A stretch of 64,000 nt of DNA from contig NZ_AUKG01000005.1 of assembly GCF_000424625.1 (NCBI RefSeq), positions 62,001 through 126,000 of the forward strand, written 5' to 3'. Made by a program: the position numbers and the translations under genes. The stretch comes from Conexibacter woesei Iso977N. GTDB taxonomy: Bacteria; Actinomycetota; Thermoleophilia; Solirubrobacterales; Solirubrobacteraceae. Positions 25,958 through 30,559 of the stretch are shown piece after piece; position 1 is the stretch's first letter, and each line of letters begins with the position of its first letter. The notes beneath the pieces are model-generated. The model saw only the letters and a program-made list of their open reading frames with translations. It was not told where the DNA came from and did not search any database.

Positions 25958-27331
25958 CTACTCCGACGCGTCGTCGGAACCCGCAGCGGCGGCCGCCGGG
26001 GCGGCGCCGCCGGCGCGCTCGGCCAGCAGCTCGACGGCCTGGCGCTGGGCCAGATCCTCGATCAGCTCCTCGAGGCGCCCCTGCTGCTCCAGGCGCTTGC
26101 GCAGCTTCTCGGGCTTCGTGCCCTGCTGGATCGCCGACTCCTGCAGCGCGTCGAGGATGTCGCCATCCGACGGCTTGATGTCCTCGGCCTCGATCACGGC
26201 GGCCAGGACGGCCTCGCGGCGCAGCGCCTGCTCGGCGTCCGGGCGGGCCTCGTCGAGGATCTCCTCCTCGGACTTCTGCGCGATCCGCAGGTAGGCGTCC
26301 TTCGTGATCCCGCGGTGCGAGAGCGAGTGGAGCATCTGCTCGAACAGCTCCCTCGCGCGCGACTCGACCAGCGAGTCCGGGATCTCGACCTCGGCGCCCT
26401 CGACGACCTTGTCCAGCGCGGCCTCGCGGAACTCCGCCTCGACCTTGCGCTCGTCGGCCTCGCGCATGCGCGTGGCGATGTCCTCGCGCAGCTCGGCGAG
26501 CGTGTCGAACCCGCCGGCCTCGGTCGCGAAGTCGTCGTCGAGCTCGGGCAGCTCCTTGGCCTTGACCTCGTTGACCGTCACCTCGAACTGGGCGGGCTTG
26601 CCGGCCAGGTGCGGCGCGGAGCCGTACTCCTCGGGGAACGTGACCTCGACGACCTTCTCGTCGCCGGCCTTCAGGCCGACGAGCTGCTCCTCGAAGCCGC
26701 CGATGAACTGGTTGGAGCCGAGCTCCAGGAGGTGGTCGCGGCCCTCGCCGCCGGCGAAGTAGTCGCGCTCGCCGTCGTCGCCCTCGATCGAGCCCTTGAA
26801 GTCGATGACGACGAAGTCGCCGTTCTCGGACGCCTTCTCGGCGGTCTCCAACCGGGCGGAGCGCTCGCGCAGCTGCTCGACCTGCTCGTCGATGGCCTGC
26901 TCGTCGGCCTCCGGCTCGCGGCGCTCGACCTCGAGCTTGGAGATGTCGCCGATCGTCGCGGTCGGGCGCACGCCGATCTCGATCGTGAAGTTGAGCGGCT
27001 CGCCCTCGCCGGGCAGCGCGGAGAAGTCGAGGTCGACGTCGGGCTCGCCGACGGTCTTGATCCCGGCCCCGTCGATCGCCTCGACGTACCAGCGCGGGAG
27101 CGCGTTGCGGACGGCCTCGTCGAGGATCGCCTCGCGGCCCAGGCGCTGCACGACGACCGGCGCCGGAACCTTGCCCTTGCGGAAGCCCGGCATGCGCAGG
27201 TCGCGGCCCATCCGGCCGGCGGCCTCGGTGACGCGGCGCGCAACTTCCTGCGGCGTGACCTCCGCGGCGACTCGAACCCGGGACTCGGGGAGCTCTTCGA
27301 CGGTGGTCTTGACGTTCGTTGCAGCGGCCAT
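25958..27331 (-). CDS. tig: Trigger factor (ribosome-associated chaperone)
   Basis: 457 residues. N-terminal ribosome-binding domain with the signature motif as MPGFRKGKVPAPVV, a central FKBP-type PPIase domain (ENGDFVVIDFKGSIEG, FIGGFEEQLVGLKAGDEKVV), and a long helical C-terminal chaperone domain, ending in an Ala/Gly/Ser tail. It binds nascent chains at the ribosome exit. tig, clpP and clpX often adjoin; here three envelope genes lie between tig and clpP. Confidence 0.95.
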   Translation of the reverse strand: MAAATNVKTTVEELPESRVRVAAEVTPQEVARRVTEAAGRMGRDLRMPGFRKGKVPAPVVVQRLGREAILDEAVRNALPRWYVEAIDGAGIKTVGEPDVDLDFSALPGEGEPLNFTIEIGVRPTATIGDISKLEVERREPEADEQAIDEQVEQLRERSARLETAEKASENGDFVVIDFKGSIEGDDGERDYFAGGEGRDHLLELGSNQFIGGFEEQLVGLKAGDEKVVEVTFPEEYGSAPHLAGKPAQFEVTVNEVKAKELPELDDDFATEAGGFDTLAELREDIATRMREADERKVEAEFREAALDKVVEGAEVEIPDSLVESRARELFEQMLHSLSHRGITKDAYLRIAQKSEEEILDEARPDAEQALRREAVLAAVIEAEDIKPSDGDILDALQESAIQQGTKPEKLRKRLEQQGRLEELIEDLAQRQAVELLAERAGGAAPAAAAAGSDDASE

Positions 27332-27529: not shown

Positions 27530-28324
27530 CTAGCAGCTCACCGTGACGTGGAACGCCTTGTTGGCCAGGGCGCCCGCGTCGTCGCGGGTCGAGACGTTGA
27601 TCGTCTTCCTGTCGCCCGCCAGCTCGGCCGCCGCGGCGCCGGCCGACGTGACCGTGGCCTCGGTGACCTGGATCGCGCACGCCGAGACGTCGTTGCTGGC
27701 GACCACCTGGTAGGTGCCGGTGCCCGTCGTCGTCGCCGACGCGAACCCGCGCTTGACCGTGCCGAGCGCGCCGGCGTCGGAGACGGCGGCGATCGACGTC
27801 GCGCCCTGCACGGCGGCCGTGGCCGTCGTCGCGGCATCGTCATGCGCGGCCCTGGCGATGTCGTCGGCGCCCTTGCCGTCGACCTGGTCGGCGTTCAGCC
27901 CGGTCGCGACACCCGTCGCGTTGGTCGTGAACGGCGCGGCCCTGGTGTTGCCGGAGGTGATCCGGCCGACCTCGGTGCCGCCGTTGGACGAGAACTCGAA
28001 CGCGCGGCCGTCGGCCAGGTTCGAGGCGCGGACGCAGGGCTCGTTGCCCTTCTCGGAGCCGCCGAGCTTCGAGCGGCAGCCGTAGATCGCGCCGCCGCCG
28101 TTGTCGGACTTGTTGGACTGGCGGGTGCCGTAGGTGCCGTTGTTGGCGATGATCTGCGTCTCGGACGACAGCGCCGCCGAGGCGTTGGATCCGGGGTTGC
28201 GCTTGCCCAGCAGCAGCGTCCTGCCTTCACCGGTCGCGAACGAGACCGACGACGCGAGCAGGCCGATGACGATCGCCGCGGACAGCACGATCGCCCCCTT
28301 GGAGTGGAACAGCTTGCGGAACAT
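27530..28324 (-). CDS. Exported or membrane-anchored beta-rich protein of unknown function
   Basis: 264 residues. The N-terminal hydrophobic segment (GAIVLSAAIVIGLLASSVSFA) is a signal or anchor. The next part is Asn/Ser/Gly-rich (SSETQIIANNGTYGTRQSNK), then GLNADQVDGKGADDIARAA, a motif often seen in actinobacterial secreted proteins as a repeat (NADxxDG). The C-terminus is beta-rich and ends HVTVSC. A good GGGAGG lies upstream of the ATG. Function unknown. Confidence 0.7.
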   Translation of the reverse strand: MFRKLFHSKGAIVLSAAIVIGLLASSVSFATGEGRTLLLGKRNPGSNASAALSSETQIIANNGTYGTRQSNKSDNGGGAIYGCRSKLGGSEKGNEPCVRASNLADGRAFEFSSNGGTEVGRITSGNTRAAPFTTNATGVATGLNADQVDGKGADDIARAAHDDAATTATAAVQGATSIAAVSDAGALGTVKRGFASATTTGTGTYQVVASNDVSACAIQVTEATVTSAGAAAAELAGDRKTINVSTRDDAGALANKAFHVTVSC

Positions 28325-28462: not shown

Positions 28463-29797
28463 TCAGCGTCGCAGAGCGAAGATCGGCCACGGCCCCGGGA
28501 CGCCCCGGAGGGCGTGTGCGCCCAGCGGCTCGAACGTCAGCCCGGAGCCGACGACGGTCCCGTAGCTGGTCCCGGAGACCAGCACCTGCCCCGGACCCGC
28601 CATGTCGCACACGCGCGCGGCGATGTGCACGGCCATCCCGCCGACGTCGCCGCCGATCAGCTCGCACTCCCCCGTGTGCAGCCCGGCGCGCAGCTCGATC
28701 CCCAGCCCGCGCACCGCGGCCAGGACCGTCCGGGCGCAGCGCAGCCCGTCTGACGGCGGCCCCTCGAACGCGGCCATGTAGCCGTCGCCGAGCGTCTTGA
28801 CCTGGCGCCCGCCGTAGCGCTCCACCTCGCGGTGGATCGCGGCGTCGTGGGCGGACAGGAGGTCGCGCCAGCGCGCGTCGCCCATCCGCGCAGCGTGGCC
28901 GGTCGCGTCGACGATGTCGGTGAACAGGATCGTCATCAGCCGCCGCTGCAGCCCCGACGTCGTCGTGCGCGAGCCGGTCAGGAACTCCTCCAGCTCGCCG
29001 AGCAGCGCCTCGCTGTCGCCGACCATCGGCAGCGAGTCCTCGCCGGGCAGCTCGACCAACCGCGCGCCCGGGATCAGCCGCGCCGCCATCCGCGAGTGGC
29101 CGACGTCGATCATCCTGTCGCCGGTCCGGTGCAGGATCAGCGTCGGGACGCGCAGCTGGGGCAGGTGGTGGCGGACGTCGACGCCGTCGAGGTTGGCGCT
29201 GAGGCGCAGGAAGCCCTGCGGCGTCGCGGACTGGCGCTCGTAGCGGCCCATCCACTCGCGCATCCGCTCGTCGCCTTCGAGCGACGGCGCGAGGCGCCCG
29301 AGGTTCGCGCCCGTCCCCCACGTGTCGCGCAGCCTCGCCAGCCGCTCCGCGCGGTCGTGCGGCGCCTCGATCCACGGCGCGTCCTGCTCGCGCGCGGTCG
29401 CGATCACCGAGGCGTACAGGACGAGCGCCAGCGTCCGGTCCGGGCGCGTCGCCGCGTACTCGATCGCCAGCGGCCCGCCGGCCGCGTAGGACTGCAGGAC
29501 CACGCGATCGCAGCCGGCGTCGTCGAGGACCGCGTCGAGGTCGGCGACCTCCTGCTCCAGCGTGATCGTCCCGTGGTGGCGGTCGCTCAGCCCCACGCCG
29601 CGCCGGTCGACCAGGATCACCCTGGCGATCGAGCCGAGCCGCTCCCACCACCGCCGCAGCCCCGGCTCCTCCATCAGCACCTCGATGTGCGAGGTGACGC
29701 CGTTCAAGAACACCATGTCGACCGGGCCGTCGCCGAGCAGCCGGTACGCGATGCTCGCGTCGCCGGATTGGGCCCATCGGACGCGGCCTTCTTCCAT
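28463..29797 (-). CDS. Degenerate alpha/beta-hydrolase fused to class III nucleotidyl cyclase
   Basis: 444 residues. Residues 1-275 have the alpha/beta-hydrolase fold seen in a family of cyclase fusions (DRRGVGLSDR, LQSYAAGGPLAIEYAA, LILHRTGDRMIDVGHS). The nucleophile elbow should read GxSxGG but is SYAAGG, with Ala105 at the Ser position; the His position in LPGEDSLPMVGD is Ser255. The acid D227 remains. Residues 285-444 are a class III cyclase: metal Asp294 (FTDIV) and Asp338 (GDGYM), Lys334 preceding TLGD as in adenylate cyclases, and HIAAR (His for the usual Asn, Arg kept). It likely makes cAMP, with a non-catalytic ligand-sensing hydrolase domain; the Crp-like gene upstream is a candidate receiver. 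Confidence 0.86.
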   Translation of the reverse strand: MEEGRVRWAQSGDASIAYRLLGDGPVDMVFLNGVTSHIEVLMEEPGLRRWWERLGSIARVILVDRRGVGLSDRHHGTITLEQEVADLDAVLDDAGCDRVVLQSYAAGGPLAIEYAATRPDRTLALVLYASVIATAREQDAPWIEAPHDRAERLARLRDTWGTGANLGRLAPSLEGDERMREWMGRYERQSATPQGFLRLSANLDGVDVRHHLPQLRVPTLILHRTGDRMIDVGHSRMAARLIPGARLVELPGEDSLPMVGDSEALLGELEEFLTGSRTTTSGLQRRLMTILFTDIVDATGHAARMGDARWRDLLSAHDAAIHREVERYGGRQVKTLGDGYMAAFEGPPSDGLRCARTVLAAVRGLGIELRAGLHTGECELIGGDVGGMAVHIAARVCDMAGPGQVLVSGTSYGTVVGSGLTFEPLGAHALRGVPGPWPIFALRR

Positions 29798-29827: not shown

Positions 29828-30559
29828 CTAGGCCGGCGAGAGCAGGCGCTCGGTGACCGGGTCCACGAGGTGGGCCGGGTCGCCGCGCAGGAGCCAGCCG
29901 TCCTCGGTGCGCTCCAGCAGGTGGTCGCGCGAGAGGTCGCCCAGCGCGGACGTGACCGACGGGCGGCGGGCGCCGACGAGGCGGGCCAGCGCCGAGTGGG
30001 TCAGGCCCATCGGGACCAGGACGCCGTCGGGCGTGACGCGGCCCCAGCGCTCGGCCAGCGCCCAGAGCGCGAGCAGCAGCCGGTCCTCCAGGCGCACGAG
30101 CTGGTTGACGACGAGCCGGACCGCCAGGCCGCGGTGGCGGCGCGCCGTGCGGGCGAAGAGCGCATCGACGACCGGCGGGAAGCGCACCACGAGGTGCAGG
30201 AAGCGCTCGTCGAGGACCGCGAGGCGCAGCGGCTCCAGGACCGTCCAGCGCGCGACGAGCGGCAGCTCGGACGCGGCGGCGTCGGTGTCCCACGGCCGCA
30301 GGATGTCGCCGAAGCCGAGCACCTCGGTCGAGGCGCGGCGGCCGAGGTCGAGGTCGCGCAGCAGCAGGCCATCGAGGATCAGCAGGCCCAGCGGCGTGCC
30401 GGCGGGATCGATCGCGCCGGCCGCGTCCCAGCGACCGGTCGGGACGCGGAGCGTCTCGGCGACGAGCTGGTGCAGCGCGCGCTGCTGGTCCTCGGGCGCG
30501 AGTCGATCCCCGAGTTCCGGGTCGAGATCGAGCAGGCGGACGAGGTCGTGGGCAGCCAC
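29828..30559 (-). CDS. Crp/Fnr-like transcriptional regulator
   Basis: 243 residues. The N-terminal half (residues about 30-120) fits a cyclic-nucleotide-binding-like beta barrel, though the canonical phosphate-binding cassette (GE..RxA) is not clear: GFGDILRPWDTDAAAS occupies that place. A dimer helix (FFARTARRHRGLAVRLVV-like) leads to a winged helix-turn-helix (MGLTHSALARLVGARRPSVTSALGDL). It lies 30 bp upstream of the hydrolase-cyclase gene on the same strand, so a cyclase-receptor pair is a reasonable but unproven idea. Confidence 0.78.
   Translation of the reverse strand: MAAHDLVRLLDLDPELGDRLAPEDQQRALHQLVAETLRVPTGRWDAAGAIDPAGTPLGLLILDGLLLRDLDLGRRASTEVLGFGDILRPWDTDAAASELPLVARWTVLEPLRLAVLDERFLHLVVRFPPVVDALFARTARRHRGLAVRLVVNQLVRLEDRLLLALWALAERWGRVTPDGVLVPMGLTHSALARLVGARRPSVTSALGDLSRDHLLERTEDGWLLRGDPAHLVDPVTERLLSPA

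Follow-up and report, generated by a model that had tools for sequence, protein, structure and literature searches.

A class III cyclase fused to an alpha/beta-hydrolase domain that lacks the Ser-His dyad, a putative ligand-sensing cyclase of Conexibacter woesei

The window analysed here, a stretch of 64,000 nucleotides from the genome of Conexibacter woesei Iso977N, encodes a protein in which an alpha/beta-hydrolase domain without catalytic serine and histidine is joined to a class III cyclase domain (Table 1). This two-domain architecture is of an already known kind. Our preferred explanation, which we consider somewhat better than an even bet from sequence and structural modelling, is that the hydrolase fold serves as a non-catalytic ligand sensor gating an active cyclase. 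The original prediction had placed the fusion exactly, its limits coinciding with those of an ATG-started open reading frame of 444 codons on the minus strand, and both halves are recognized by Pfam above cut-off (Abhydrolase_1, 9.7e-16; Guanylate_cyc, 1.9e-10). No Rfam family was found between positions 27000 and 32000 of the window.

Table 1. Features of the hydrolase-cyclase fusion and its neighbours (positions within the window)
Feature	Position	Strand	Basis
Hydrolase-cyclase fusion, 444 aa	28463..29797	-	ATG-initiated ORF and translation
Alpha/beta-hydrolase domain, residues 1-275, without Ser nucleophile and His	28973..29797	-	AlphaFold2 model and structure matches
Inter-domain linker G275-L287	28937..28975	-	Near-constant length
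Class III cyclase domain, residues 284-444	28466..28948	-	Match to Rv1900c (1ybu), catalytic residues
Ala105 (GCG), nucleophile elbow position	29483..29485	-	phmmer alignments, AlphaFold2 model
Asp227 (GAC), acid position, retained	29117..29119	-	Alignment
D231, H234, S235, clade-specific conserved residues	29093..29107	-	Clade alignment
Ser255 (TCG), catalytic-His position	29033..29035	-	phmmer alignment to 7yii
D294, cyclase metal-binding Asp	28916..28918	-	Present in 176/176 relatives
K334, adenine-recognition Lys	28796..28798	-	Pairs with D384
D338, cyclase metal-binding Asp	28784..28786	-	Present in 176/176 relatives
Crp/Fnr-fold regulator, upstream, same strand as cyclase	29828..30559	-	HTH_Crp_2 (PF13545), 5.1e-8
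264-aa protein of unassigned family, hydrophobic N-terminus, downstream	27530..28324	-	Conserved neighbour

An AlphaFold2 model of the fusion, built with 69 relatives, has a mean pLDDT of 94.5, and its N-terminal domain (residues 5-275) is matched by VIA-align to esterase 5h3h with a Z-score of 31 and to a bromoperoxidase with 29; the signalling hydrolases D14, DAD2 and RsbQ follow slightly below the esterases and haloperoxidases (Z 27-28). The core fold including the nucleophile elbow between strand 5 and helix C is thus present, and Asp227 occupies the acid position, as had been proposed together with the preservation of the fold-defining segments. The elbow is formed by a strand (residues 99-105), a two-residue turn and a helix (residues 108-117), with A105 at its tip. 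Alignments by phmmer to solved haloperoxidases and esterases agree with the original prediction that Ala105 stands at the nucleophile site, and Ser255, which had been suggested to replace the histidine, falls on the catalytic His of 7yii. The fold therefore has neither a Ser nucleophile at the elbow nor a His after the last strand. There is no GxSxG motif within residues 1-280 of the fusion, nor did we find a displaced one in those family members that we scored as lacking the Ser. Ser103, whose location in a working nucleophile elbow would have spoken for a functional hydrolase, was rejected as substitute nucleophile; it lies in the strand two residues ahead of the elbow and is poorly conserved, being replaced by Ala or Gly in 9 of the 15 members of the query's clade. 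This clade, which comprises sequences from the genus and the nearer family, has no Ser at position 105 in any member and a Ser at position 255 in 13, so that the absence of the dyad is due neither to chance nor to a sequencing error. Among the His residues checked, only two do not vary within the clade, namely H223, which is part of a strand, and H234, near the beginning of the helix that follows the acid loop. There is thus no visible relocation of either the Ser or the His function. Judged from its sequence, the hydrolase half is almost certainly not a Ser-His hydrolase.

The cyclase half, in contrast, retains most of its catalytic equipment. Its model (residues 283-444) superimposes on Rv1900c (1ybu) with an rmsd of 1.1 A over 161 residues at 52% identity, and codons as well as alignments bear out the earlier statement that D294, K334 and D338 are intact. 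The two metal-binding aspartates and the transition-state Arg395 are present in all 176 relatives aligned, and the Lys/Asp pair formed by K334 and D384 recurs in 111 of them. The position of the transition-state Asn is occupied by His391, as it is by His in 152 of the 176 relatives and in Rv1900c, where the His has been read as evidence that adenylyl cyclase activity does not depend on the Asn (PMC4886424); His391 could nevertheless mean that cyclase activity is low. On these grounds the cyclase half is quite probably active. As a separate observation, the base-recognition pair is charge-swapped (Asp334/Lys384) in 32 fusions (e.g. L124, L127, L131), as against the 111 with Lys/Asp, and this covarying exchange could reflect a changed nucleotide specificity.

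The loss of the dyad is not a peculiarity of the C. woesei protein but recurs across the family. We sampled the host's lineage at the levels of genus, family, order, class and phylum, together with plasmids from rhizobia and other proteobacteria, for such fusions and aligned 176 full-length proteins; the seeds were biased towards the query, and the counts are thus not population frequencies. Both Ser and His are present in 92 of these fusions, neither in 67, only the Ser in 10 and only the His in 7, which leaves a Ser at position 105 in 102 and a His at position 255 in 99 members. The acid Asp at position 227 is found in 139 fusions, including 84 of the 92 Ser-His members and 41 of the 67 members without the dyad. 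Five further residues (K65, R83, E106, G103, G129), each conserved in at least 83% of the Ser-His members, are far rarer in the dyad-less proteins. On FastTree and IQ-TREE phylogenies calculated without the dyad columns, a loss-only model implies 30-32 losses of the Ser and 14-19 losses of the His; dependent loss is favoured over independent loss by a delta lnL of about 45 on both trees, and on one of them under three rootings, with the Ser being lost about 20-fold faster once the His is gone. We quote the loss-only model because an unconstrained two-way model of gain and loss implied regain of the Ser. Independent-pair tests restricted to well-supported branches have Ser and His lost together, in cases too few in number for significance (median p 0.25). 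The query belongs to a His-less clade of 36-42 sequences, several of which retain the Ser, and in this clade the His was thus probably lost first and the Ser later. Given this recurrent, family-wide loss, the hydrolase half is most likely a sensor of a small molecule and not an enzyme that cleaves one. A second hydrolase-cyclase fusion is encoded in the same genome (G000:C6:48830-50143; L061, L010), which is 44% identical, has kept the Ser (GHSEG) but no His, and falls into the query's His-less clade on the IQ-TREE tree; a search of genome contigs with the single fusion protein recovered one distant hydrolase match only.

Despite the missing dyad, the dead domain appears to be maintained rather than decaying. 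No orthologue in the cross-genus alignment shows a break in its reading frame, and 53 of 280 positions are invariant in the 15-member clade. Within the genus its pN/pS stays below 1, in keeping with evolution under constraint. The linker to the cyclase has an identical length in 153 of the 176 fusions, with R285 and L287 almost invariant. Family-wide, the identity of the hydrolase domain relative to that of the cyclase is only slightly to moderately lower in dyad-less pairs than in intact pairs. The picture of a dead hydrolase on a preserved scaffold, with fold, fixed-length linker and cyclase all kept, thus held up. In addition, Y104, A129, D231, H234, S235 and S255 are conserved in the clade and differ from the residues of intact members; D231 and H234 occur in all 15 sequences and S235 in 14, and these three are rare among Ser-His proteins.

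How the domain is used is less clear-cut, and the most serious alternative, to which we give perhaps one chance in four, is that it acts as a structural or dimerisation domain that simply keeps two cyclase domains together, or that it contacts a partner protein, in either case without a small ligand. Within the genus, pN/pS ranges from 0.37 to 0.74 for the hydrolase domain and from 0.21 to 0.56 for the cyclase domain, and such faster divergence would be expected of a passive scaffold. Many dyad-less members have in addition lost the acid Asp, K65, R83 or E106, and with the acid Asp frequently gone the pocket is not conserved in its entirety among them; moreover, the fold can work by protein-protein contact, with RsbQ and D14 being among the structural neighbours. 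An input role nevertheless fits better, both because Y104, D231, H234 and S255, which lie in or close to the former active site, are conserved in the clade and because the hydrolase module is coupled to differing outputs in related proteins. It seems improbable that the domain carries out some other non-hydrolytic or relocated catalysis, for example via H234 and D231: although the invariance of these two residues in the clade and their rarity among Ser-His members would be in line with a new active site, they sit where the helix after the acid loop begins (residues 233-241 in the model), away from the elbow, position 105 offers no Ser, Cys or Asp, and Ser103 is poorly conserved. Slightly less probable still is relaxed decay of a functionless half, for which the several independent losses and the raised pN/pS relative to the cyclase might be cited, but which is at odds with the uninterrupted reading frames, the confidently predicted fold, the near-constant linker and the clade-invariant positions.

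The differing outputs are found in two groups of relatives. A hydrolase of the same type is fused to a LuxR-type helix-turn-helix domain in two proteins (L065, L067; confirmed by Pfam), and a third (L068) has a similar ending as judged by eye. In SARP regulators (Trans_reg_C and BTAD; L064, L066, L246-L248), which come from two genera including that of the host, a hydrolase with intact SEGG motif and His is followed by a cyclase-like region, the two modules being ordered as in the query. This region has lost both metal aspartates in L064 and at least the second one together with the surrounding motifs in L066 and L246-L248, so that these proteins are a mirror image of the C. woesei fusion, with the dyad intact, the cyclase aspartates lost and a DNA-binding SARP head. 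A hydrolase module that is attached to varied outputs, and in whose fusions either enzyme half is able to die, behaves as a signalling domain would, and its union with DNA-binding outputs is as expected for an input (sensor) domain.

If the hydrolase-fold half is indeed a sensor, the protein would be a soluble class III adenylate cyclase under the control of a non-catalytic alpha/beta-hydrolase-fold input domain. The old active-site cavity might take up a small molecule without cleaving it, upon which the lid and the last helix of the domain (residues 262-274) would move; the short linker could transmit this shift to the cyclase homodimer, altering its closure and thereby switching cAMP synthesis on or off. 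The cAMP would then act through receptors elsewhere in the cell, candidates being two PF00027 proteins with a canonical cyclic nucleotide cassette encoded elsewhere in the genome (L074, L075).

The closest known system is Rv1900c (LipJ; NF058673), which resembles the query in order and length of its two domains and in the His at the Asn position. However, the query scores 388 bits against the NF058673 cut-off of 800 and is thus not LipJ itself, and its Lys334 corresponds to an Asn in the Rv1900c cyclase. Three proteins from the host's phylum (L214, L217, L222) exceed this cut-off for 'bifunctional lipase/adenylate cyclase LipJ', and the cyclase domain of a fourth LipJ-type protein (L215) is 79% identical to 1ybt. 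All four lack the catalytic His, and their elbow residue, a Ser in two and a Gly in two, is not set in a GxSxG context. For these four proteins at least, the 'lipase' in the name LipJ is thus open to doubt, Rv1900c itself having been compared via its cyclase half. Taking into account that LipJ-type hydrolase halves are annotated as lipases although in much of the family they cannot work as Ser-His lipases, the name 'bifunctional lipase' should be used with caution in databases. Plasmid-borne proteobacterial hydrolase-cyclases, such as those of Bradyrhizobium (WP_304501501) and Sinorhizobium (WP_037390704), have the architecture of the query, to which the best of them are 43-45% identical; in contrast to the query, all seven that we aligned (L227-L233) possess Ser-Glu-Gly and the His.

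Hydrolase folds that act in signalling are also known as stand-alone proteins. D14/KAI2 and RsbQ are hydrolase-fold signalling proteins and close structural neighbours of the N-terminal domain, but they are not fused to an output, and the catalytic triad is present in DAD2/D14 (PMC3531792). The gibberellin receptor GID1 has an alpha/beta-hydrolase fold that has lost its active-site His and binds its ligand uncleaved (PMC3531792); unlike the query it has kept the Ser, and it is a plant protein that signals via binding of DELLA and has no fused cyclase. It is conceivable, though we hold this broader proposal only tentatively, that a large bacterial family has repeatedly turned an esterase fold into a non-catalytic receptor for cAMP production, often by loss first of the His and then of the Ser and linked residues, while sister proteins lost the cyclase instead. 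If true, this would give bacteria their own counterpart of the gibberellin receptor, tried out independently dozens of times, and would offer a bacterial system in which the change from enzyme to receptor can be studied; it would also raise the question of which ligand is bound, for which the intact and dead relatives represent natural controls. In those parts of the literature that our search covered, we found no description of a dead hydrolase half, of its ordered, recurrent loss or of the mirror-image SARP proteins; an earlier remark on the dead half is possible.

The gene upstream of the fusion, correctly placed at a distance of 30 bp by the original prediction, had been suggested to encode a Crp-like protein that may read the cyclase product. 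Its predicted fold is indeed similar to NtcA and MtbCRP (Z about 17), but the protein shows no match to PF00027, and in its family a conserved GD(I/L)LRPWD motif replaces the canonical phosphate-binding cassette for cyclic nucleotides (GE...R-A), in a region where the model is of low confidence (pLDDT 56 for residues 91-100). The genome encodes four members of this family, the close relatives of which are multi-copy and mostly located away from cyclases, and adjacency to the cyclase was seen only within the genus. These findings lend no support to a role in reading the product, and the family possibly senses a different effector. The 264-aa protein encoded downstream had no match in Pfam or NCBIfam. 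Its gene is found beside the orthologous cyclase in nine genomes from three genera and is present in a single copy in this genome, which makes it a better candidate partner of the fusion than the Crp-like regulator.
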